Positions 3 through 15,063 of a DNA stretch of 64,000 bases are shown here, one piece after another. Origin of the DNA: Tessaracoccus flavescens (GTDB lineage Bacteria; Actinomycetota; Actinomycetes; Propionibacteriales; Propionibacteriaceae); assembly GCF_001998865.1 (NCBI RefSeq), contig NZ_CP019607.1:1426001-1490000 (forward strand), read 5' to 3'. Under the pieces are notes generated by a model. The model saw nothing but the letters and a program-made list of their open reading frames with translations. It made no database searches and was not told the origin of the DNA. The position numbers were made by a program, and so were the translations under genes. Numbering within the stretch: the first letter of the stretch is position 1; the number at the start of each line of letters is the position of its first letter.

Positions 3-637
3 GGATCGACGACTCAGAGCGGAGCGGCCACGAGCAGCACCTCGGTGATCTCGATGTCGATCGGTTCGATCCTCGCCGCCGCGGCAGGCGCACCCGTCAC
101 CCGGCGGTTCGGGGCCAGGACGACGGCAGCCGTCGGGTCGCTGATCATCGCCGCAGCACCGAGGCGGGCGCGGCCCTCGGCGCCGCAGGACTTGGCTACA
201 CCCTCGTGCTGCTCAGCCAGTTCATCGGACGGATACTCGGCGACCCGATGACGGACCGCTGGGGCCGGGGTCCGGTCGCCCGGCTCGGTGGAGTCCTGAT
301 CGCCGTCGCCGCATTGTGCGTCGTGCTCGTCCCCGGGATGGTGGCGCCCTTCATCGGCTTCGCCCTGATGGGTTGCGGCAGCGCGACCCTCGTGCCTGCC
401 GCCTTCGCGGCAGCCGGCCGGCTGCCGGGGCTCGCGCACGGCTCGGGGATCGCGCTGGTCGGCTGGCTGATGCGGCTCGGGTTCCTCTTCACCTCACCCC
501 TGATCGGGGTCACCTCCGACGCGTTCGGCCTGCGCACCGCAATGCTCTTGCCTGTGTTCAGCGGGCTGGCTGCGGCCGTCATCGCGCACCTCGTCTGGAG
601 GGTCAAAACACCTTCGACGGTCGCCGTCGAAGGCTAG
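3..637 (+). pseudogene. MFS transporter, C-terminal part, frameshifted, 5' end outside window
   Basis: This is the C-terminal portion of a major facilitator superfamily permease whose start lies before the window. The reading begins in frame 3 (IGSILAAAAGAP, RRFGAR, VGSLIIAA) and must switch to frame 2 near 150-158, where TEAGAALGAAGLGY continues into VLLSQFIGRILGDP and ends at a TAG at 635-637. Neither frame alone gives a full product. The later part holds several hydrophobic helices and an MFS-like D-R-x-G-R loop (DRWGRGP). The family exports or imports small solutes by proton coupling; no substrate can be inferred. The single-base shift could be a real mutation or a sequencing error. I am confident of the family and of the frame change, not of its cause. 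Confidence 0.7.
611..633 (+). terminator. Hairpin over the end of the MFS gene
   Basis: A perfect 10-bp stem, CCTTCGACGG and CCGTCGAAGG, with a 3-nt loop covers the last codons of the transporter. No T-run follows, so it may be only a weak terminator or a coincidental coding hairpin. Confidence 0.35.
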
Positions 638-691
638 GCTGGAGCCCAGGGCCCAACGATGTCGCCCGCAGTACCCAGGAGGTGCACAAGC

Positions 692-1090
692 ATGGAAGCA
701 ACCATGGAGGAGACCGGGGAAACCACAGGCTTGGAGGTGTCGCTCACAGTCCACAAGCAACTCAGAGACGTGTGGGCGGCGCTCATGACACCGGAGGGCA
801 ACGAGGCCCTGCTCGGTGAGGGAGGACGGCTGGGGTCGAAGGGTGACGACTGGCGCTCGGCCGACGGCGCCTACGGCGTCACCCGAAGCTTCCATCCGAT
901 GGAACAGATCCGGTTCTCCTGGCATGCCGATGACGACTCGCCACGCACGGTCGTCGATCTCCAACTCCACGACGAGGACGGTCGTACCAGGCTCGACCTC
1001 AGCCAGGACCATCTGCCGACGGAAGCCGATCTGGACGCGCTCTCTTCCCACTGGGAGGACGTGCTCGCACGGATCGCCGACCTGGGCTGA
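692..1090 (+). CDS. SRPBCC/START-like domain protein
   Basis: A soluble protein of about 132 residues. It looks like a SRPBCC (Bet v1/START/AHSA1-like) fold: an N-terminal strand (LEVSLTVHK), an L-R-D-V-W-A-A-L-M-T-P helix where AHSA1-like proteins have VWxALT-P, then strands ending in RLDLSQDHL and a long C-terminal helix with SSHWEDVL. These folds bind hydrophobic ligands; no ligand can be named. The ATG at 692 is preferred over an upstream GTG because AGGAGGTG lies 8 bases before it. It stops 3 bases before the convergent end of the first beta-propeller gene. Family assignment is by pattern and moderately sure. Confidence 0.7.
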   Translation: MEATMEETGETTGLEVSLTVHKQLRDVWAALMTPEGNEALLGEGGRLGSKGDDWRSADGAYGVTRSFHPMEQIRFSWHADDDSPRTVVDLQLHDEDGRTRLDLSQDHLPTEADLDALSSHWEDVLARIADLG

Positions 1091-1093
1091 GCC

Positions 1094-2467
1094 TCATCCC
1101 CAGACGGTGAGCGTTCCGTCCGGGCCGTAGGTGGCGAGCCTCGGCCCCAGCCGCATCAGGCTCCAGGAGTCCTGCTGGTCGTGCCACTGCCAGACCAGCT
1201 CTCCACTGCCAGGGTCGATGCCCGCCACCTCGAACGTCGGGTCCGGGTCGGTCGGCTCGTACATCCGCGTCACGAGCAGGTCGGTCGCGACCATGACGTC
1301 GAGGACGGGCGCCGGGGTGCGGGTGTGCCACAACTCGCGCCCGGTGGTGAGGTCGATTCCGGCGAGCCAGGCGTCCGCATAGTCGGCGGTCGTGGTGCCG
1401 AGCTCCGGGAAGATCGTCTGGGCGCCCTGGTACAGGATGAGGTGGTTGTCCCGGATGATCAGGTCGGTGTAGACCATCCGGATCTGCGCCGACCACTGCG
1501 TGCGCCCTGTGTACGGGTCGAGCCGGTACAGCTGACCCATCGACTCGGCCAGCAGCACCTCGAGGCTTCCGATGACGTAGGCCGCCCCCGGCGCGACCCG
1601 CCAGAGCCGCCTACCCGTCTCCAGGTCGTGTCCGACCATCTCCTTCTCGGAGGTGTAGATGGCGACGTCACGGGCGATCACGAACCGGTCGGTCTGCGTC
1701 GACCATGCTGGCCGCTCACCGGTCCAGGCGTCGAGCGCGAGCGCGTAACTGGCCGAGCCGCGCCACCCGTCGGAGGTCCGCGCGAGCAGCAGACCGTCGC
1801 GCTCAACCACCTCGGCCTCGCGCAGCGCGAGGGAGACTGCGGCGGTGAACGGCACCTCTGTGGTCCAGGTGACGGCGCCCGGGTCGGGACGCGACAGCCG
1901 GCTGATGCGCAGCCGGTCGCCGTCCGGCACCGCGAGGATCAGCGTCCCGCGGCTGCTTGAACCGAACCACGCGCGCTGATCCGGGAGGGTGAACCGGTGG
2001 CGCTCCTCCCCTGAAAGTCGGTCGAGCACCCTGACGCTTGCACCGACCTTGAGGCTCACCCAGGGTGTGCCCGGCAGGTCGCACACCTCCACCTGGCCGA
2101 CCTCGCCGTCGACGCTCTTTCGCCACAGTTCGCGGCCGCCCGCGGCGGAGAGTGCGCGCACCCTCGCCCGACCCGTCACGGCCTGGCGGGTGGAGATCAG
2201 GATCAGGGAGTCGCCGACCGCCGTGGCCGATTCGTCGCTGCGGAGCTCGACGCTCCACGCGGCGTCGGGTGCGGCACCGAGTCCGACGAGATCGGTGCCC
2301 GCCTCGGAGGTGGGGGCAGTGACCACAAGGTACCCGGCGAAGAAGGCGGCGAGGAGGGTGACGGCCGTGACGATGAGCCCGGTGTGACGCTCAAGCCAGC
2401 CGGGTTCGGGAACCCGCCTCGTCGGTTCCGCGAGTTCCAGCACCTCATCATCGAACGTGCCACCCAT
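1094..2467 (-). CDS. Membrane-anchored PQQ-like beta-propeller protein, paralog 1
   Basis: 457 residues. A cytoplasmic N-tail of about 27 residues (D-D-E-V-L-E-L at 6-12) is followed by one membrane helix (about 28-49) and then a long extracytoplasmic domain made of beta-propeller blades. Blade signatures of the PQQ/quinoprotein type recur: A-G-G-R-E-L-W-R-K, LETGRRLWR, DPYTGRTQW, LTTGRELWH and DPGSGELVWQW. The last strand is DGTLTVWG, as in the paralogs upstream. It is the last gene of a five-gene minus-strand array (1094-8089), 107 bases after paralog 2's stop. Such propellers often act as scaffolds or binding platforms; no enzymatic residues are evident and function is unknown. It has the most diverged N-tail of the five. 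Confidence 0.85.
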   Translation of the reverse strand: MGGTFDDEVLELAEPTRRVPEPGWLERHTGLIVTAVTLLAAFFAGYLVVTAPTSEAGTDLVGLGAAPDAAWSVELRSDESATAVGDSLILISTRQAVTGRARVRALSAAGGRELWRKSVDGEVGQVEVCDLPGTPWVSLKVGASVRVLDRLSGEERHRFTLPDQRAWFGSSSRGTLILAVPDGDRLRISRLSRPDPGAVTWTTEVPFTAAVSLALREAEVVERDGLLLARTSDGWRGSASYALALDAWTGERPAWSTQTDRFVIARDVAIYTSEKEMVGHDLETGRRLWRVAPGAAYVIGSLEVLLAESMGQLYRLDPYTGRTQWSAQIRMVYTDLIIRDNHLILYQGAQTIFPELGTTTADYADAWLAGIDLTTGRELWHTRTPAPVLDVMVATDLLVTRMYEPTDPDPTFEVAGIDPGSGELVWQWHDQQDSWSLMRLGPRLATYGPDGTLTVWG

Positions 2468-2574
2468 AGTTCAGGCTACGACTTTTGGCCGCCTGACAGA
2501 AGGGTTCGGGCTCAGCGGTACACGCGCAACCCGCCGTCGGCGACCGCGACCAATCGGCCACCGACCACGGACGG

Positions 2575-3897
2575 CTAGCCATCGGGCTCAAGGTCCCACC
2601 TGATCGAGCCCGTCATCAGATCGAGCGCGGAGACGCTCGACCGGCCGAACCCCTCGTCGAGAAACCTGCTGAGCAGGACCTGCTCCTCACCAAATGCGCT
2701 CCAGGTGAGCTGCCCGGTACCGAGGGATGCCGTCCACAGGACGGCGCCGTCTGCCGGATCGATCCGGGAGAGCTGCAGGTCGATGGTCATCCGGTTCGAC
2801 GGCGACTGGCTAAGGGCGAGCACGACGTCGCCGAAGGTCCGCACCTCCGCGACGGGGTGCGGGGTCTCGCCCGTCCACAGCTCACGGCCCGTCCTCGGAT
2901 CCAGCCGGGTGATCGGCGAGACGAGGTCGCCCTCCCCGGGGTCAAGGAAGGCGAAGTCCGGGTCGGGCACCGCGTAGAGGGCGTCGCCGCTTGTCACGAC
3001 GAGTTCGCGCTCGACCTGCCTTGTCCACAGCCGCCTGCCACTGCCGAGATCGACGCCAGCGACATCGCTGCCGTCACGACCAACGGCGACATTGCCGACG
3101 AAGTTCATCTGCCGCAGCGAGGTCGACCATTCGGGGCGGGTGCCGTCATCGAACTCGAGCACGAAACCGAAGCCTCCTGCGGCGTCGGGATACCAGAGGA
3201 GGCCGCGGTACTCGATGAGGGGGTTGCCGGTCGGAATGGCCGGCACGTCGTCCTCGCGGAGTTCTGCGGTCCAGACCCGATCGAAGACGTCCCCGCCGCG
3301 CAGCCGGCTGATGCTGGTCGTGCGCCCGTCGGGGGTGCCCTCCGGTGCGGCGAGGAAGAGGTCTCCCGCGTCCGAGCTGAGGAGCCGGGCCTGGGTCACG
3401 GTGTCTCCCGTGGAGGGGGGCAGGTCCAACGTCGCGACGCTCACCCCATCGCCGCGGTCCACCAGGCGGGCGCTCGTGTCGTCGGTGAACAGCAGGAAGT
3501 CGGTCCCGGGGAGGTCCTCGACCCATGCCCACGGCTCCGTGGCGAGATCACTGCGCCACACCTCCGTGCCGTCGTGGAGGCTCAGACAGCGCACCGACAG
3601 ATCGACGTCCTCCCGCTCGAAGGCGACGATCCGTCCCTCCCCGCACCGCTCGAACGACAGGCGGGGTACGCCCGGGGCACTGTCGAGCCGCCAGGCGACT
3701 GTCGGCTCCTCCGGCAGCCCGACGACCTCCGGCTCGGGCTGCCGCTCGGGCCAGACAAAGACGGCGACGAGGGCTGCGGCGACCGCGAGCACGATGGCGG
3801 CCAGCCACCCGGACTGGCGCCGTCCCCATCCGCCCCCAGCCGGGGGCTGTTCCCCGGAGTCGAGGTCGACGGCGTCCAAGGGCGCGAGTTCAGCCAT
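2575..3897 (-). CDS. Membrane-anchored PQQ-like beta-propeller protein, paralog 2 (premature amber stop)
   Basis: 440 residues starting at ATG 3897, chosen because it begins MAELAPLDAVDLDSG like its paralogs and overlaps the stop of paralog 3 by 8 bases (ATGGCTGA), suggesting translational coupling. Residues 1-29 are cytoplasmic, about 30-47 form one helix ending in V-W-P-E, then the propeller follows with blade ends LGSGRRLWTR, DPRTGRELW and DPADGAVLW. The frame ends WDLEPDG then TAG. Without that TAG the frame runs on through PSVVGG, RLVAVADGG and LRVYR to a TGA at 2512-2514, matching the final strand of the other copies. The gene therefore appears truncated by a nonsense codon 21 residues early. 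Function unknown. Confidence 0.8.
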   Translation of the reverse strand: MAELAPLDAVDLDSGEQPPAGGGWGRRQSGWLAAIVLAVAAALVAVFVWPERQPEPEVVGLPEEPTVAWRLDSAPGVPRLSFERCGEGRIVAFEREDVDLSVRCLSLHDGTEVWRSDLATEPWAWVEDLPGTDFLLFTDDTSARLVDRGDGVSVATLDLPPSTGDTVTQARLLSSDAGDLFLAAPEGTPDGRTTSISRLRGGDVFDRVWTAELREDDVPAIPTGNPLIEYRGLLWYPDAAGGFGFVLEFDDGTRPEWSTSLRQMNFVGNVAVGRDGSDVAGVDLGSGRRLWTRQVERELVVTSGDALYAVPDPDFAFLDPGEGDLVSPITRLDPRTGRELWTGETPHPVAEVRTFGDVVLALSQSPSNRMTIDLQLSRIDPADGAVLWTASLGTGQLTWSAFGEEQVLLSRFLDEGFGRSSVSALDLMTGSIRWDLEPDG

Positions 3898-5266
3898 AGA
3901 TCTCCAGCCCTTCCTCGGCGATACCCACCAGGTGGCCGAGCCAGACGAACAGGTAGCTCTGCGACCCCGCGAGGCGCCACCGCTCGGCACCGGTGCGCGG
4001 GTCGAGGGCCGTGGCCGTCGAGGCCCCGATACCGTCCTCCTCGTCACCCGGAGGGCCGACCATCGTGACGACGACCTGGCCTTCCCCCAGGTAGGCGCCC
4101 GTCACCGCACCGCCAACCTCGGCCTGACGCGTCCACAGCGCCCTCCCGTCGGCCGGGTCGACCGCGGTGACCGCCGACAGTCGACCGTCAGGCCACAGGT
4201 TGGCTCCCTCGTGGCTGAACGCGAGGATGACGTCGTCGAAGATCTTCAGCTGGGCGGCGACGTGCGGAAGCTCGACGCTCCACACCTCGCGACCGGAGCG
4301 GGGGTCGAGCCGGGTCAGCGAGCCAGGGGTGTCGCTGTCGATGGCGCCGGCGATCGCGTCGTGCAGGTAGAGGCCGTCGTCGCTGCCAACCGCAGCCTGA
4401 CCTGAGGACGGCCGGTTCCAGAGCTCGCGACCACTTCCCAGGTCGTGGGCGCGCAGGCCGTCCGGTGAACCCCCGGCGACGACGTTTCCCGCGAAGGTCA
4501 TGTTGCGCAACTGCCGGGCCCATTCGGGGATCTCGGCGTCGGAGTCGCGGACCGCAAGGCCGAAACCGCCGCCGTAGCCCGTCTCGGACAGCCGCAGATA
4601 CCCGCGATGTTCGACGATCTCCGACGGCAGGGCGTCCAGGTCGACGTCGGCGCCCTCCAGCATCGTGGTCCACTTCACGTCGGCTGTGTCGTGGTCGGTG
4701 AGCCGACTGAGTTCGACGATCTGCCCGTCAGAACCCGGCCGCCTCGTCCCGATCATCAGCACTCCTGAGTCCGCGGCGAGGATGGCGGGCGGCTGGCCAG
4801 AGGCGTCGAACGGTAACGAGATCAGCCGCTCTCCCGAGCCGGCGTCCAGAAGTGTGATCCGGTCGGCCACCACGCGCACGTGGCTGCGTCCGACCGGCTC
4901 GACGAAGGCCTCCACGCCGGGCAGAGTCTCGACGGTGGCCTCCCAGCCGCGCGCGTCACCGAGGAGCGGGCTGCATTCGAGCCGCACTGCCAGGTGCTCG
5001 GTGTGCTGGGTCAACAGGCCGTCTTCGCCGCAGCCGGCGACCATCGAACCTACGGGCATGACGCGCTCCACGACGCTCGGCCTGGTCAGGAGGCCTTCGA
5101 CCTCGGGCGAGACAGCCGGCTTCGGCCAGACGAGGACCGCGATCAGCGCCGCGAGGACGATCAGCGCCGCGCAACTGACGAGCAGGGTGTGGCGGACGCT
5201 CCAACCCCGGGCGCGCGCCGGTTCCGCGTCCTGCGCGGCGTCCAGATCGACGAAGTCGTCACCCAT
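3890..5266 (-). CDS. Membrane-anchored PQQ-like beta-propeller protein, paralog 3
   Basis: 458 residues: N-tail MGDDFVDLDAAQD, a basic R-A-R-G-W-S-V-R stretch, one long membrane helix (about 27-47, ending V-W-P-K-P) and an extracytoplasmic propeller. Blade signatures are LGSGRELWNR, DPRSGREVWS, DPADGRALWT and DPRTGAERW, and the protein ends GLEIYG. It appears intact and is the best reference for the array. The start is supported by the conserved N-tail shared with paralogs 4 and 5. Its stop overlaps paralog 2's start by 8 bases and it begins 22 bases after the end of paralog 4, so the genes look co-transcribed. A pair of Cys residues early in the ectodomain (A-G-C-G-E-D and L-E-C-S) also occurs in paralogs 2, 4 and 5. 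Function unknown. Confidence 0.85.
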   Translation of the reverse strand: MGDDFVDLDAAQDAEPARARGWSVRHTLLVSCAALIVLAALIAVLVWPKPAVSPEVEGLLTRPSVVERVMPVGSMVAGCGEDGLLTQHTEHLAVRLECSPLLGDARGWEATVETLPGVEAFVEPVGRSHVRVVADRITLLDAGSGERLISLPFDASGQPPAILAADSGVLMIGTRRPGSDGQIVELSRLTDHDTADVKWTTMLEGADVDLDALPSEIVEHRGYLRLSETGYGGGFGLAVRDSDAEIPEWARQLRNMTFAGNVVAGGSPDGLRAHDLGSGRELWNRPSSGQAAVGSDDGLYLHDAIAGAIDSDTPGSLTRLDPRSGREVWSVELPHVAAQLKIFDDVILAFSHEGANLWPDGRLSAVTAVDPADGRALWTRQAEVGGAVTGAYLGEGQVVVTMVGPPGDEEDGIGASTATALDPRTGAERWRLAGSQSYLFVWLGHLVGIAEEGLEIYG

Positions 5267-5288
5267 GACCGAATGCTAGGCCGACCGG

Positions 5289-6674
5289 TCATCCGTACAC
5301 CGTGAAAGCGCCTTCACCGCTCACCACGAGACGGTGCCCGACGACCGTCGGCTCGCCAGGAAGCCTGGTGTCCCAGAGGCTCTTCCCGGTCTCAAGGTCC
5401 AGCCCCGCGAGGCGCGTCCCCCCTCCATCGGCGGGGTTGTACACGACAAGCACCTGTCCCTCACCGAACAGCAGCTCGCTGAGGGAACCCCCGATCTCGC
5501 TCGTCCACCGCACGGCACCGTCGCCGCGCTCAAGGAGCGTGAGGACCGGGGACGAGCCCTCGGCCTGGCCGGCGACCAGGACGCAGTCGTCGAACGGCTC
5601 GACCGTGCCGACGGGCTGAGGAAGGGTGACGCTCCACACCTCCCGGCCGGAGCGCGGATCGAGGCGGGTGACGACCCCACCGGGTTCGGGTTCCGCGGGC
5701 TGCGGCTCGGCCGTGAGATAGAGCGTCTTCGAGTCGGGCACGATCCCCTGCGTCCGCGCGTCGCGCTCCCACAGGGTCCGGCCCGAGGTGAGGTCGACGG
5801 CGCGCACCCCGGTCCCGGAGTGGCCGACCGCGACCCCGTCCACGTGGACCAGGTTCCGGAGCCCTCGGCTCCATCCGGGAACCTGCCCGTCGGTCGCGCG
5901 CACCACGTCGGAGGCCCCTGTGCTCCAGGCTCCATCCGGCTCGGGGATCCACAGGAGCCGCCATACTCGCTGATGGCCGCACCGTCGAGCAGCGAGCCGC
6001 CGCGTTCAAGCTCGGCCGTCCATTCGGCATCGGCGGGGTCGGTGCCCCGCAGCCTGCTCAACCGGACCGGGCCGGGACGGTCCTTATCCCCGATCTCTGC
6101 CCAGAACAGGGTGCCGGTGTCGGACGCGACCAGCGCAGGCAGCGGCGGCGGCTCGCTCTTCTGACCGGGTGGAACGCACGGCCACGACTCCGCGGGGCAG
6201 CGTTCGAAGTTGCTGACCAGGTCGCCGGTGCCCCGGTCGAGGAGCCGGTCGGGTCTGCCGTCAGCAACGCGGATGTAGGGGGTGCCGACCAGCTCCGTGA
6301 CCGTCGGGTCCTGGGGCAGTTTCTCCGTCGCCCACACCACGTGCCCGTCCTCCAGGTCCAGGCAGCCGACCCAGTTGCTGCGCAGCGTGTGGGCGCACCA
6401 ACACGCCCGCGTTCCCGCAACCGCCAGCCGCCCAGAGGTCCTCGTCCGTGGTCGGCAACTGCCAGGCGACGACCGGCCCACCCTGCAGGCCTACGACCTC
6501 GGCGACCGGGGCGGCCTTCGGCCGGAGGACGAGGTAGGCGCCCGCCACGGCGAGGACGACCGCCACACCCACCACCGCGAGGCTCTGCCAACGCGGCCAC
6601 GACCGCAAAGGCCTACCCGACGGTGGTGCGTCGAGATCGACGACTGCGTCGTCGCCGGTTGCGTGTCCGCCCAT
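5289..6674 (-). pseudogene. Membrane-anchored PQQ-like beta-propeller protein, paralog 4, with two compensating frameshifts
   Basis: The gene starts at ATG 6674 (MGGHATGDDAVVDLDAPP), with a membrane helix around residues 27-45 and the early ectodomain in one frame to G-N-A-G-V-L-V. Near 6391-6398 an extra base moves it to a second frame (AHTLRSNWVGCLDLEDG onward to ISEYGG). Near 5956-5962 a missing base returns it to the first frame (LLWIPEPDGAWSTG), and it ends FTVYG at 5289. Joining the three pieces gives about 460 residues, colinear with paralogs 3 and 5, with blades LTSGRTLWER, DPRSGREVWS and LETGKSLWD. The two shifts are about 430 bases apart. They could be a decayed copy with compensation or two assembly errors. 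Confidence 0.8.
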
Positions 6675-6748
6675 GTCACCAGGGTATTGCCTGACTTCGC
6701 GCAGGGCTCTCCGGGCCGGCATCCAGCGGCGGCCATGCGGCCCGGGAC

Positions 6749-8089
6749 CTACCTGTAGACCACGAACCCGTCGTTGTCGTCGGTCACGAGCCGACCCCCG
6801 ATGACGAACGGGTAGCCCTCGGGGTCGAGCTCCCATCTCGTCTCACCGGTCGCGAGATCGAGCGCGATCACACGCATGTCCTCGCCCCAGTCACCTCCGG
6901 TCGGCATCATGACGAGGACCTGCTCCTCGCCCCATTTCAGATCGGAGAGCCACTCCCCCTCGAACTCGCGGGTCCAGCGCGCCGCACCCGTTCCGGGATC
7001 GACCGCGGTGAGGTGGAAGGGGACGTGGGTCGTCTCCCGGCCCGCCTGATCGATCGCCAGCACGACATCTAGGAAGGTCTCGACTGCGCCAACGGGGTGC
7101 GGGAACGTGGCGTTCCAGATCTCCCTCCCGGTGTGCGAGTCGAGCCGGACCAGCTTTCCCTCGACCGGGCCCCATCGCGGGTCCACCTCGCTGCTGTCCG
7201 GGCTCTGGGTCGCGAAGAGGGCGTCTCCGGAGGCCACCGGCTCCTCCCGCCACTCGTCACGCTCCCACAGGGTGCGGCCGCTGCCCACACTGACCGCCCT
7301 GAGGCCGGTACCCGAGCTGCCGATGACGACGCCGTCCAACAGGACCATGTCGTGCAGTTGCCTTGACCACTCGGGGATCGTCCCGTCCTCGAGATCGACT
7401 GCGAGGGAGAATCCCTGCGCGAGGGGGATACTCGCCCCGCAGAACCAGGCGAGGCCATGGCTCTCGATCGGGCTCCCTACGGCGAGCCAGCCCGCGACCA
7501 CGTTGCCGAACTGGACGTCCCAGACGCGGTCGTCGGGGTCGGTCCCATTGAGTCTGCTGAGGTGCCACTCAGGCTCCAGCTCGCCCCAGGTGGGCTCGGC
7601 GTAGAAGAGTGTCCCCTTGTCGGAGGCGACAAGGACCGGGCGGTCGTCCCCCAGCGGATCGAAGTCGATGCGATCGACGAGCTCTCCATTCCGGGCGTCG
7701 AGCAGCCGGACGGTGCGCTCGCCCTGCAGCGTCAGATATCTGGTTCCGGGCAGCGTCGCGACCCATCCGAACCCTCCATCGAGCTCATAGGTCGACTCCC
7801 ACCTCATCCTCCCGTCCTCAAGCCCGAGGCAGGCGACCACGACGAAGCCCTCGCCGCTCTCGTCGCTCGTGAGCAGGCCCCGATCTCCGCACGTCCCTGC
7901 CGGGTAGGCGGCACCGGCCAGAGTCCAGGCCGGCACGGGCGTCTGCCGCAGGCCGAAAACCTCCGGCACGGGACGGGGTTCCGGCCAGGCGAGGACGGCG
8001 ACGACGAGCGTCAGGCTGTTGCGCCGGCTCCACCCCTTGAACGGGGCAGATGACGGCGCGGCATCGAGGTCGATGAGCCGCTCGCCCAT
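6749..8089 (-). CDS. Membrane-anchored PQQ-like beta-propeller protein, paralog 5 (short membrane helix)
   Basis: 446 residues, first gene of the array. The N-tail MGERLIDLDAAPSS matches the others, then G-W-S-R-R leads into a hydrophobic run of only about 10 residues (LTLVVAVLAW) before the conserved P-E-P, where paralogs 2 and 3 have about 18-20. This looks like an in-frame loss of roughly 27-30 bases and may prevent membrane spanning. The propeller has blades VGSGRTLWER, DSHTGREIWN, DPGTGAARWT and LATGETRWEL, ending GFVVYR. A promoter for the array should lie between here and the sugar-transport operon that ends at 8133, but the 43-base gap is short. Function unknown. Confidence 0.82.
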   Translation of the reverse strand: MGERLIDLDAAPSSAPFKGWSRRNSLTLVVAVLAWPEPRPVPEVFGLRQTPVPAWTLAGAAYPAGTCGDRGLLTSDESGEGFVVVACLGLEDGRMRWESTYELDGGFGWVATLPGTRYLTLQGERTVRLLDARNGELVDRIDFDPLGDDRPVLVASDKGTLFYAEPTWGELEPEWHLSRLNGTDPDDRVWDVQFGNVVAGWLAVGSPIESHGLAWFCGASIPLAQGFSLAVDLEDGTIPEWSRQLHDMVLLDGVVIGSSGTGLRAVSVGSGRTLWERDEWREEPVASGDALFATQSPDSSEVDPRWGPVEGKLVRLDSHTGREIWNATFPHPVGAVETFLDVVLAIDQAGRETTHVPFHLTAVDPGTGAARWTREFEGEWLSDLKWGEEQVLVMMPTGGDWGEDMRVIALDLATGETRWELDPEGYPFVIGGRLVTDDNDGFVVYR

Positions 8090-8132: not shown

Positions 8133-9347
8133 TCAGCTGCCTGCAGAGCGGTTCTTGTTCATCAGGTCGAAGGCCACGGCCAGCACGAGGACGAGGCCCT
8201 TGATGATGAACTGCCAGGACGGATCGACGCCCATGATCGACAGGCCCATGTTGAGCACGCCCATGATCAACGCGCCGATGATGGCCCCCGACACCCGCCC
8301 GATGCCGCCCGTGACCGCCGCGCCGCCGATGAAACAGGCGGCGATCGCGTCGAGCTCGTAGTTCTGTCCGGCCGCCGCCGTCGCGGCACCGGCACGCGAG
8401 GTGACGACGATCGCGGCGAGCGCGCACAGCACGCCCATGTTCACGAACAGCCAGAAGTTGACCTTGCGGGTGTTGATGCCCGAGAGCTTCGCCGCGGCGA
8501 GGTTGCCGCCGATCGCGTAGATGTGGCGGCCGAAGACCGTGTTGCCCATCAGCCAGGCGTACAGGAAGATGATCAGCCCCACGATGACCAGCACGTAGGG
8601 AAGGCCGAGCGCGCTGCGGGCGATCCAGTAGGTCGCCAGACCGATCAGCACGGTCAGGCCGATCAGCTTGACCAGCAGCAGCGGAAACGGTTCGACCTCG
8701 AGGCCGCGCCTGTGGTTCCTCGCGCGCCGCGTGAGGGTGCTGAGGATCAGGCCGGCAATGCCGACGATGCCGACGATCAGGGTGAAGGCGTCCAGGTCAC
8801 CGACGAACCCGGTGAGGCCCGCCACGCCGCCGTTGGAGATCGACAGGAACTGCGAGTCGAAGCCGGCGCGCGTGTAGCCGACCAGCACGAGTGCGACACC
8901 GCGGAAGATCAACATGCCACCGAGGGTCACGATGAATGCGGGTACCCCGACGAAGGCGACCCAGAACCCCTGCCAGGCGCCGATCAGGGCGCCGACGGCG
9001 AGGCCGACCAGGATGGCCAGCCACGGGTTGAGCCCGAAGTCTGCCATCAGCACGCCGATCACGCCGCCGACAGCAGCGACGACCGAGCCGACCGACAGGT
9101 CGATGTGCCCGGCCACGATGATCATCAGCATGCCGACGGCGAGGATGAGCACGTAGGCGTTCTGCTGGACGAGGCTCGTCACGTTGTTCGGCTGCAGCAG
9201 CCGCCCACCGGTCATGATCTGGAACAGCAGCACGATCAGGACGAGCGCGCCCATGATGCCGTACTGGCGCATCCCCGAGCCGAGCCCGCTCCAGACCCTC
9301 GGGCCCTTCGTCTCGGCGACCGCCTCCGGAGTCGTGGTGGTAGTCAT
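8133..9347 (-). CDS. gguB: Sugar ABC transporter permease (GguB/XylH type)
   Basis: 404 residues, inner-membrane permease of the BPD_transp_2/RbsC-like family with about ten hydrophobic helices. The hallmark A-G-x-I-D-L-S-V-G-S motif follows the third helix ([13 protein letters not shown]), and the loop G-G-N-x-x-A-A-x-L-S-G-I-N, which contacts the ATPase, is present ([17 protein letters not shown]). Length and the extra central loop fit the multiple-monosaccharide group (GguB/MmsB, XylH) rather than ribose permease. Its ATG overlaps the ATPase stop by 4 bases (ATGA), so the three genes 12288-8133 form an operon importing a monosaccharide such as xylose, arabinose, galactose or glucose. The exact sugar cannot be told from the sequence. 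Confidence 0.9.
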
Positions 9348-11095
9348 GCGCGCGGTGCCTCCAAAGTCATAAGTTCCATGAGCGACTCCTGTGTCGCCTC
9401 TTCTCGCGGCAGCTGGCCGGTGATCCGTCCCTCGCTCAGCGCGTAGATCCGGTCACACACCCCCAGGAGCTCTGGCAGCTCCGAGGAGATGACGATGACG
9501 CCGCGGCCGCTCGCGGCGAGTTCGTTGATGATCTGGTAGATCTCGTACTTGGCGCCGACGTCGATGCCGCGGGTGGGCTCGTCGAGGATCAGCACCTCAG
9601 GGTCGGAGAACATCCACTTGCTCAGCACGACCTTCTGCTGGTTGCCGCCCGACAGGTTGCGCGCCGGCTGCTGGATCGATGACGAGCGGATCCGCATCTT
9701 GTCGCGGTACTCGTGGGCGACGACGTCCTCGCGGTTCTTGTCGATCACGCCCTTGTTGCTCAACTTGCCGAGCGCGGCGGCAGAGATGTTGTGCCGGATC
9801 TCCGCGATCAGGTTGAGCCCGAACTTCTTGCGGTCCTCGCTCACGTAGGCGACGCCGTTGGCGATCGCCTTCTGAACGGTTCCGGTGTCGATCTCGACGC
9901 CGTTCTTGAGCACGCGACCCGTGATCCGCGAGCCGTACTGGTGGCCGAAGACGCTCATGGCGAGCTCGGTGCGTCCTGCGCCCATCAGCCCTGCGATGCC
10001 GACGACCTCGCCGGCGCTGACGGTGAGCGAGGCGTCGTCGACGATCACCCGGTGGGTGTCCTCGGGGTGGTGGACCGTCCAGTTCTCGATCCGCAGCAGC
10101 TCTTCGCCGATGTGCGGGTCGCGCGGCGGGAACCGGTGGTCGAGCGGTCGGCCGACCATGGAGCGGATGAGCCGCTGTTCCGTGACGGGTTCGTCTGGTG
10201 CGGCGACACTGGCGCCTGGCGCATCGGAGATCGCCTCGAGCTCCTCGTCGACCGAGTCGAGGACGCTGCCGATCCGGCCGAGTTCCTCTCCCCCATCCAC
10301 GACGCCGTCTTGACCCGCTTCCGGCTCCGGTTCGGCCCTCGTCGGCTCGGGAGAGGCGACCGGGGTAGCGACGGGTTCGGGGATCGGGGCAGCCTCGCGG
10401 CGGGCACCCGGCTGGTTGTCGAGCGTCTCGACGACGGAGCCGTCGCGGATGACGGTGATCGCGTCCGCGATGGCCATGATCTCGTTGAGCTTGTGGGAGA
10501 TGATGATCTGCGTCACCCCCTCGGCCTTGAGCGATCGCATCAGGCCGAGCAGGTGGGCGGAGTCCTCGTCGTTGAGGGCGGCGGTCGGCTCGTCGAGGAT
10601 GAGCAGGTGCACGTTCTTCGAGAGCGCCTTGGCGATCTCGACCAGTTGCTGCTTGCCGACGCCGATGTCGAGCACCCTGGTCTCCGGGCGTTCCCTCAGG
10701 CCGACGCGCTGCAGCAGGGCCTTCGCCTCGGACATGGTGGTGCGCCAGTCGATCACGCCACCCTTTGACCGCTCGTTGCCGAGGAAGATGTTCTCCCCGA
10801 TGGAGAGGTACGGGGAGAGGCCCAGTTCCTGGTGGATGATCACGATGCCGTCCGCCTCGCTGTCACGAAGCGACCTGAACCGTGCCTCCCTCCCCTCGTA
10901 GACGATCTCGCCCTCATAGGTGCCGTGCGGGTAGAGCCCGGAGAGGACATTCATGAGCGTTGACTTGCCTGCGCCGTTCTCGCCGCAGATGGCATGGATC
11001 TCCCCGGGCATGACCGTCATGGTCACGTCGCTGAGAGCGCGCACCGGGCCGAACGTCTTTCCGATGCCGCGCATCTCCAGGATGGGTTCGCTCAC
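9344..11095 (-). CDS. gguA: Sugar ABC transporter ATP-binding protein (GguA/XylG type) with acidic insertion
   Basis: 583 residues, two fused ABC domains. Domain 1 has Walker A GENGAGKS (38-45), the Q-loop region [11 protein letters not shown], a signature-like [10 protein letters not shown] (146-155) and Walker B LLILDEPT (164-171). Domain 2 starts near 330, with the degenerate Walker [11 protein letters not shown] usual in this family, LSGGNQQKV and a second LILDEPTRG. It energises the permease encoded downstream. Homologues are about 500-515 residues; the surplus is a Pro/Glu/Ala-rich segment at about 227-303, between VVETLD and [12 protein letters not shown], exactly at the inter-domain linker. 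It stays in frame and has similar base composition, so it is probably a lineage-specific linker, not a foreign insertion. The substrate-binding gene is 32 bases upstream. Confidence 0.92.
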
Positions 11096-11127
11096 GTGTT
11101 GCTCCTGTCCTCTCCGGGCTCAGTGAC

Positions 11128-12288
11128 TCAGAGGCCGAGGTCTTCTGCCTTGTAGAAGCCCGAGTCGACGAGCGCGGTCTTGACGGTGTCCTTGGTGACG
11201 ACCTCCGGCTCGACCAGGTAGGTGGGCACGACGAGCTTGCCGTTGTCGTAGGTCTCGGTGTCGTTGACCTCGACCTCTTCACCCTTGATGATCTGCTCGA
11301 CCATCTTGGCCACCTGCTCGCCTAGCTTGCGGGTGTCCTTCCACACCGTCATCGACTGCTTGCCCTCGAGCATGGCCTTGGTGTTGGCGAGGTCGGCGTC
11401 CTGGCCGGTGAGCAGCGGCCAGTCGGTGCCGACCTTGTAGCCCGCACCGTCGAGGGCCTGCTGGATGCCGAGCGCGAGCGAGTCGTTGGGCGACAGGACG
11501 ATGTTGACCTTCTTGCCGCTGTAGAACGAGTTGAGTCGGTTCTCCATCTCGGCCTGCGCCTTGGCGGACTCCCAGCCGGGGATGCCGATCGACTGCCACT
11601 CCTCGTTCGACTTGGGCGCCTTGCCCGACGGCACGGTGAACTCGCCGCTGGTGACCTTCTCGCCGATCTTGTCCCACGCACCGGAGAAGAAGAACTTGGC
11701 GTTGTTATCGTCGGGAGACCCGGCGAAGGGCTCGAGGTTGATCGAGCCGTCTGCGCCCTTGTACTGGTCGATGTTGTCGAGGATGAACTGCCCCTGGAGC
11801 TGGCCGACCTTGTAGTTGTCGAAGGTGGCGTAGTAGTTGACGTTCTCGGAGCCGTTGATCAGGCGGTCGTAGGCGATGACGGTCGCGCCCTGCGACTTGG
11901 CCTGGTCGAGGACGGGGCCGAGCGCCGTGCCGTCGATCGAGGCGATGACGAGCACCTTCGCGCCGTCATTGAGCATGTTCTGCAGCTGGTTGTTCTGCTG
12001 GTCCTGCTTGTTGTCCGCGTACTGCAGGCTCGTCTTGAAGCCTGCGGCGGTCAGCAGTTCGACGAGGTGCGAGCCGTCGCGGTTCCAACGCTCGAGGCTC
12101 TTGGTCGGCATCGCGATGCCGATCAGTTCCCCACCCGTGGCGGCGCTCTCGGTGGAGGCGGGCTCGGTGCCGGCGTCCGTTGCGGCCGCAGTGGTGGCCG
12201 TCTCACGCTCGGCGCTGCAGGCGCTGAGCATGCCGACGGCGGCTGCAGCAGAGGAGAACGCGAGCAGGCTACGACGCGAAATATCCAT
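11128..12288 (-). CDS. chvE: Sugar ABC transporter substrate-binding lipoprotein (ChvE type)
   Basis: 386 residues. ATG 12288 is chosen because it opens a signal peptide (MDISRRSLLAFSSAA, then G-M-L-S-A-C) with a lipobox ending at Cys23; a longer frame upstream would bury this. The mature part is a periplasmic-binding-protein-1 fold: IGIAMPTKSLERWNRDG, NQLQNMLNDGAKVLVIAS, VIAYDRLI and NDSLALGIQQAL are typical of ChvE/XylF-like multiple-monosaccharide binding proteins. A Thr/Ala-rich linker of about 30 residues joins the lipid anchor to the domain. It is the first gene of the transport operon, as usual for binding proteins. A promoter and palindrome are visible about 90-120 bases upstream. Confidence 0.93.
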   Translation of the reverse strand: MDISRRSLLAFSSAAAAVGMLSACSAERETATTAAATDAGTEPASTESAATGGELIGIAMPTKSLERWNRDGSHLVELLTAAGFKTSLQYADNKQDQQNNQLQNMLNDGAKVLVIASIDGTALGPVLDQAKSQGATVIAYDRLINGSENVNYYATFDNYKVGQLQGQFILDNIDQYKGADGSINLEPFAGSPDDNNAKFFFSGAWDKIGEKVTSGEFTVPSGKAPKSNEEWQSIGIPGWESAKAQAEMENRLNSFYSGKKVNIVLSPNDSLALGIQQALDGAGYKVGTDWPLLTGQDADLANTKAMLEGKQSMTVWKDTRKLGEQVAKMVEQIIKGEEVEVNDTETYDNGKLVVPTYLVEPEVVTKDTVKTALVDSGFYKAEDLGL

Positions 12289-12543: not shown

Positions 12544-12597
12544 GACGAGCGACGGCAACGACGCCGTCGTGACCTGATTTCAGGAGAAGTGGTCGCC

Positions 12598-15063
<2,466 letters not shown>

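Follow-up and report, generated by a model that had tools for sequence, protein, structure and literature searches.

Why does the chromosome of Tessaracoccus flavescens carry five adjacent genes for pyrroloquinoline quinone (PQQ)-like propellers, and do the five work as a set? The genes, g1 to g5, occupy positions 1094-8089 on the minus strand of a stretch of 64,000 nucleotides that we call the window (G000:C1:1426001-1490000; contig NZ_CP019607.1), taken from a genome (G000) of 3.65 Mb. An earlier note had read them as five paralogs of a single plan, comprising a short N-terminal tail (with a (V/I)-D-L-D motif in four of them), one transmembrane (TM) helix, and a beta-propeller ectodomain, and had proposed that different sensors outside the cell feed one cytoplasmic partner. 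Our analysis points to another history. The array probably consists of an ancestral locus gene, g1, and four lineage-specific BamB-like PQQ_2 tandem copies, three of them lesioned as assembled, which arose by birth-and-death duplication of a predicted one-helix-anchored, eight-bladed outer propeller. What had been claimed as a new sensor layout would then become an example in which the birth and death of genes can be followed, with the ancestral place, the conserved founder, the extra copies, and the damage all found in one genus.

All five genes pass the Pfam gathering cut-off of 27.6 bits for PQQ_2 (PF13360), with scores of 59.2 for g1, 53.1 for g2, 44.1 for g3, 55.1 for g5, and 62.1 for the C-terminal piece through which g4 passes, and the seven PQQ_2 matches reported genome-wide every one fall inside the array (Table 1). 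Five adjacent paralogs on one strand are indeed present, but g3 is the sole copy of the five that is both undamaged and a match to the whole described plan. Three of the five (g2, g4, and g5) are, as sequenced, unable to yield the proposed product, which departs from the plan described for all five. The TAG of g2 lies 20 codons ahead of the C-terminus of its paralogs, and g4 reads through only if the frame is switched twice, near 6390 and near 5950, with the net length of the span divisible by 3. About half of the TM helix is lost from g5, whose hydrophobic run measures 11 residues versus 18-23 in the 17 other proteins examined and whose KD-19 maximum is 0.87 versus at least 2.19 in those 17. 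Two junctions are as tight as had been described, with an 8-bp overlap between the end of g3 and g2 (ATG at 3897) and a spacing of 22 bp between g4 and g3; from gguB through g5, g4, g3, and g2 to g1, the successive gaps are 43, 74, 22, -8, and 107 bp.

Lesions of this kind could also come from the assembly, in which case the real g2 and g4 would be undamaged and all five genes would work, with g5 as a short-helix member. The three measured pieces of g4 each retain a coding-like composition, with a GC content at third codon positions of 0.84-0.87, and this agrees with such an artefact, as does the divisibility of the whole span by three. However, the neighbors hppA, chvE, gguA, gguB, and PpdR are full length and stop-free in the same assembly, the completeness of which is 100%; the g5 deletion is in frame, which is untypical of read error; and a truncated transporter fragment of the major facilitator superfamily (MFS) adjoins the array region. 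We consider an artefact unlikely.

With three damaged copies and only one undamaged copy of the full plan, the array is more likely the outcome of common gene duplication followed by decay than a sensor set with one partner. A second array, of four genes, stands at the same place in another Tessaracoccus genome, G028, where one gene of the four (G028_a) is damaged. Lesions affect four of the seven extra copies (g2, g4, g5, and G028_a) versus none of the eight locus copies (Fisher p 0.026), in a grouping that was set post hoc and that excludes G008 and L046, a dispersed relative in G028. The G008 copy was excluded because it is fragmented in an assembly of 60% completeness in which PpdR is also split. 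Regarding the G028 sequences themselves, the D-L-D tail of the first array gene is not in frame with the helix and propeller of that gene, from which a short G run separates it (L038 9120-9300), and the dispersed relative (L046 6300-8300) lies outside the array, is frame-broken, and has no D-L-D tail.

Table 1. Array genes and neighboring features, in window coordinates
Feature	Description	Position	Strand	Evidence
g1	Intact PQQ_2 propeller, 457 aa, tail motif L-E-L-A	1094..2467	-	Pfam score, tree
g2	Tail V-D-L-D, TM helix, propeller shortened by in-frame TAG (2575-2577)	2575..3897	-	
3' remnant of g2	20 codons and a stop past the TAG, still similar to the C-terminal end of the paralogs	2512..2574	-	
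g3	Intact; V-D-L-D tail, single TM helix, full propeller	3890..5266	-	
g4	V-D-L-D tail, TM helix; frame shifted twice beyond them (near 6390, near 5950)	5289..6674	-	
g5	I-D-L-D tail, TM helix ~10 residues shorter (in-frame loss versus paralogs), propeller otherwise complete	6749..8089	-	
chvE-gguA-gguB	Genes of a sugar ABC transporter, immediately upstream, 43 bp before g5	8133..12288	-	GguA and GguB over curated cut-off; ChvE just below (442.8 of 460)
hppA	Membrane pyrophosphatase that borders the ancestral locus on one side	12589..15063	+	
AHSA1-like gene	PF08327, convergent with g1	659..1090	+	Similar gene, by eye, opposite the single gene in G011
MFS transporter fragment	Adjoins the PPDK-regulator gene, which lies just beyond the window	206..637	+	

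The distribution of relatives places this array within a family that is mostly single-copy. A 12-sequence alignment (A3) searched against 39 Tessaracoccus genomes matches 22 of them at E 1e-8 or better. Strong matches (E 6.7e-63 or better) occur in eight genomes (G000, G028, G011, G031, G029, G033, G020, and G060), and we took G008, where the copy is broken and the assembly poor, as a ninth strong-member genome. Seven of these nine carry a single gene and two carry an array, the five genes here and the four of G028. The family adjoins PpdR, the gene for the PPDK regulator, in all nine, and hppA lies on the other side in eight; in G060, the contig ends first. To find the related genes scattered singly would, for the earlier note, have spoken against a modular array: they are single in seven of the nine genomes, but all stand at one shared locus and are not scattered. 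Its suggestion that arrays be counted among relatives turned up the one in G028 and no other in the nine. Among the 13 weaker matches (E 1e-8 or better, outside the nine), those with a readable start have other tails that lack the motif; the start positions of L064, L065, and L074 are uncertain.

Beyond Tessaracoccus, the spread of the family rests on six-frame genome searches. A search of 197 genomes of the taxonomic family, ~160 of them outside the genus, finds 18 matches at 1e-12, 16 of which are in the genus; the other two (G070 and G124), from other genera, are weak and partial only. Among 394 class genomes, 33 match at 1e-10, and the listed ones outside the T. flavescens genome are partial, mostly covering profile positions 260-450. 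No full-length member was found outside the genus among these 197 family and 394 class genomes, with few candidates scored in each (8 per genome in the family rows shown and 4 in the class rows shown), so that distant ones may be missed. In a genome-contig scan, A4 finds one relative, which is in T. bendigoensis DSM 12906 (NZ_FQZG01000078.1) and matches g1; with g3 as the sole query, the scan found no relative.

The protein tree agrees with g1 as the founder. In this tree of 18 proteins, g1, the last array gene of G028 (G028_d), and the single gene of T. bendigoensis (G011), to both of which g1 is orthologous, group at 100/100 with short end branches (0.3-0.5). The other four T. flavescens genes, g2 to g5, group at 93/95, a node that is not starred, and with G028_a and G028_b at 98/94. 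A clade of all five T. flavescens genes is rejected (p-AU 1.6e-43), as is a pairing of g2 with G028_a (0.004), and a pairing of g3 with G028_c is not rejected (0.081). The simplest account of these relationships is a founding locus gene to which extra copies were added separately, at least partly, in two species, and g2 to g5 appear to be lineage-specific. End branches measure 0.6-1.4 in the extra copies and 0.8-1.5 in the single genes of G060, G031, and G029; long branches are thus not confined to extra copies. In the pair G033/G020, the single gene has a ratio of nonsynonymous to synonymous rates (dN/dS) of 0.27 versus 0.06 for PpdR and 0.01 for PPDK, that is, purifying selection but weaker than on the neighbors, and the single gene is therefore likely functional but fast-evolving. 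Between g1 and its orthologs, synonymous change is almost saturated (dS 0.87-1.07), and the corresponding ratio was not used. We propose that the founding locus gene was duplicated in tandem and that the extra copies may be diverging fast and being lost.

Although the array as a whole does not look like a set, its tails do share a feature. D-L-D lies close to the N-terminus in g2, g3, g4, and g5, as the earlier note had stated, and g1 has L-E-L-A instead. A looser core, [VILF][DEN]L[DAVT], is present in all 16 tails read, those of orthologs and paralogs alike, and strict D-L-D in 10 of the 16, which supports the earlier note. In a shuffle test, 15 of 16 tails match the core as cut, whereas over 2000 shuffles per tail the matching tails average 0.46 and never number more than 3 of 16. 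The sixteenth tail, that of G028_b, was trimmed too short by the cutting rule and matches once read further. Because the tails are related, the excess over chance reflects retention, not independent events. The leucine and the tryptophan just ahead of the helix are invariant in 13 of 13 aligned tails. The claim of a kept motif beside diverged ectodomains holds for this core but does not extend to the tail at large, since mean identity over 12 proteins is 0.302 in the 28 tail columns versus 0.280 in the ectodomain. Similarity in the four-column core (0.875) is higher than in all 366 four-column ectodomain windows of the same proteins, and its identity (0.576) is equalled or exceeded by 8 of the 366, in a comparison in which the aligner's gap placement somewhat favors the core. 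Judged by these alignments, conservation above the level of the ectodomain is limited to the four-column core and is not a property of the entire tail.

The tail also appears to have been inherited with the gene rather than shared as a tag. When a profile of tail and helix was run against the 39 Tessaracoccus genomes, with 105-150 candidates scored per genome, only family members matched at E <1e-7, and this confinement argues against a tag common to different sensors. Family members with broken frames scored E 3e-7 (G028_a) and 4.5e-8 (G008), and the first non-family match in the T. flavescens genome has E 0.005 and covers profile positions 21-47 only. Across 293 genomes of the order, 69 were matched at E 0.001, with non-family matches down to E 1.9e-6. 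Sixteen non-family loci of the order viewed by eye contain no D-L-D tail, although the chosen frame may be the wrong open reading frame in some, and 12 further matches read in their own frame, mostly those reaching the tail positions, lack the motif pattern. Two look-alikes leave the alternative of a shared tag open. One, in G341 (E 8.1e-5; the stretches of the look-alike pair are L158 1143-1253 and L163 1087-1251), reads V-L-E-L-G followed by a tryptophan and a helix; the other, at the N-terminus of a second G011 protein (E 0.023), reads M-V-D-L-S and then a helix. These are hints of a broader use of the tail, or chance.

A modular sensor array, in which the outer propellers bind different ligands and the common D-L-D tails recruit one cytoplasmic partner, would account for the retention of the core at a similarity above every ectodomain window, for the invariant leucine and pre-membrane tryptophan, and for the presence of a second array in G028. 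It is harder to reconcile with a single gene in seven of nine genomes, with damage to three of the five copies here and to one of the four G028 genes, with overall tail conservation no higher than that of the ectodomain and a core that some windows equal or exceed by identity, and with a tail profile confined to family members. We regard it as rather improbable. The idea of a shared cytoplasmic partner is weakened, and nothing in the sequences points to such a partner.

If the undamaged copies are the founder and survivors of a duplication history, what might they do? A model of g1 (pLDDT 78.3, pTM 0.71, with residues 1-23 below 50) has one helix at 24-50 followed by ~35 strands, which by our count fits about eight blades. 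The top 13 rows of a Foldseek search with this model are BamB or chain B of the BAM complex (best E 1.9e-15; TM-scores of 0.38-0.46 by query length). VIA-align ranked unrelated propellers above BamB by Z, and from it we draw the fold class alone. BamB is a Gram-negative outer-membrane lipoprotein with an eight-bladed propeller, and its partner is BamA. Similar to BamB (YfgL), which also gives the best PDB sequence match, the array proteins would place a PQQ_2 propeller outside the inner membrane. Unlike BamB, they have a helix at the N-terminus with a tail predicted to lie at the inner face, and they score 26.8 to 43.7 bits against the BamB equivalog model TIGR03300, with a cut-off of 285.2. 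Of 18 sequences, only g3 matches a simple lipobox pattern within its first 70 residues, at an L-V-S-C where the helix begins, with no preceding hydrophobic stretch. PQQ-dependent alcohol dehydrogenases have the repeat family in common with the array, but g1 to g5 stay below the cut-offs of the catalytic families (PF01011, at most 18.1 bits versus 26.7; TIGR03075, at most 16.2 versus 480); the G011 ortholog of g1 barely passes the former at 26.9 bits.

Closer to actinomycetes, the predicted eight-bladed propeller Rv3035/MMAR_1667 is reported to associate in one complex with FecB, a lipoprotein, and AftB, an arabinosyltransferase, in the passages considered of PMC12802301. It resembles the array proteins as a propeller of the actinomycete envelope and through a fold match to 9p3g, an Rv3035 homologue (Foldseek rank 29, TMq 0.43). 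It differs in that it is absent from the PDB sequence matches at E <=0.01 and in that MMAR_1667 has a predicted lipoprotein signal, and those passages mention no tandem copies. YxaL of Bacillus (Foldseek rank 24) is likewise a BamB-like propeller of a Gram-positive organism, but it is described as secreted, without a membrane anchor, and is not known to carry such a tail motif. In titles and abstract openings of the open-licence literature, we found no described array of tandem membrane-anchored PQQ-like propellers. By analogy with BamB-BamA and with Rv3035 in the FecB-AftB complex, the undamaged copies would likely work outside the cytoplasm, where they would scaffold or bind a partner in the envelope. 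The tail core would most likely aid membrane insertion or orientation, or dock one partner at the inner face, and the data do not separate these. It is a long shot that these genus-specific anchored propellers keep an inner-face docking core, [VI]-[DE]-L-[DA] with the pre-membrane tryptophan, by which fast-replaced outer propellers all connect to a single conserved partner inside, at the pyrophosphatase/PPDK locus, the tandem copies being raw material that is tried and discarded. If the core does dock a partner, single-gene relatives (G011, G031, and G033) would be simpler than the array for finding it.

The surroundings of the array raise the question of whether the propellers belong to a neighboring system. 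PpdR (NF003742, PF03618) is present in 38 of the 39 genus genomes and hppA in all 39. We computed the gap between them in 24 of the 39 genomes, a selection in which both genes share one contig; it is <15 kb in 22 of these, 8 with the family and 14 without, and reaches 17 kb in G024 and 26 kb in G032. Of the 14 family-free loci, six have a gap of 126-224 bp and five one of 688-1091 bp, and three hold larger cargo: phosphotransferase system (PTS) genes in G021, a pair in G030 that resembles these by eye, and in G016 a gguB accompanied by genes similar to gguA and chvE. With PTS genes, gguB-gguA-chvE, propellers, or nearly nothing in it, the locus takes cargo that varies among species, and the hppA-PpdR interval in Tessaracoccus looks like a small insertion spot. 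In T. flavescens, it contains the MFS fragment as well.

This setting bears on whether the propellers are accessory parts of ChvE-GguA-GguB sugar uptake on the same transcript. Here and in G028, the array comes directly after chvE-gguA-gguB and shares their strand, at 43 bp from gguB here. No terminator-like site was found on the minus strand, but the scan yielded fewer sites than its own shuffles and so says little. Across the genus, however, the 44 GguB matches are spread over 27 of 39 genomes, 20 of which have one over the curated cut-off, and just 2 matches adjoin the propeller family; six genomes with a propeller gene and both sides visible have no adjoining transporter (the G060 contig ends), and G016 has gguB at the locus without any propeller gene. 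Coupling to the transporter is quite improbable. An orphan immunity or surface-variation family, whose diverged outer domains would protect from, or vary the target of, rival toxins or phage, would suit the fast divergence, the tandem gain and loss, and the failure to find a full-length member outside the genus in the sampled genomes, but we hold it very improbable, as no toxin, secretion, or phage gene was recognized by eye among the listed gene starts beside the nine loci, where most genes are unannotated and no defence-library search was made.

Two observations concern the neighbors themselves, for which the chvE start at 12288 is our choice. The MFS fragment (window 206-637; L123 13900-14637) has its N-terminal part absent or out of frame. 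GguA (window 9344-11095) has 583 residues versus 514 in G028 and G016, and the surplus apparently lies in a Pro/Glu-rich linker joining the two ATPase halves.
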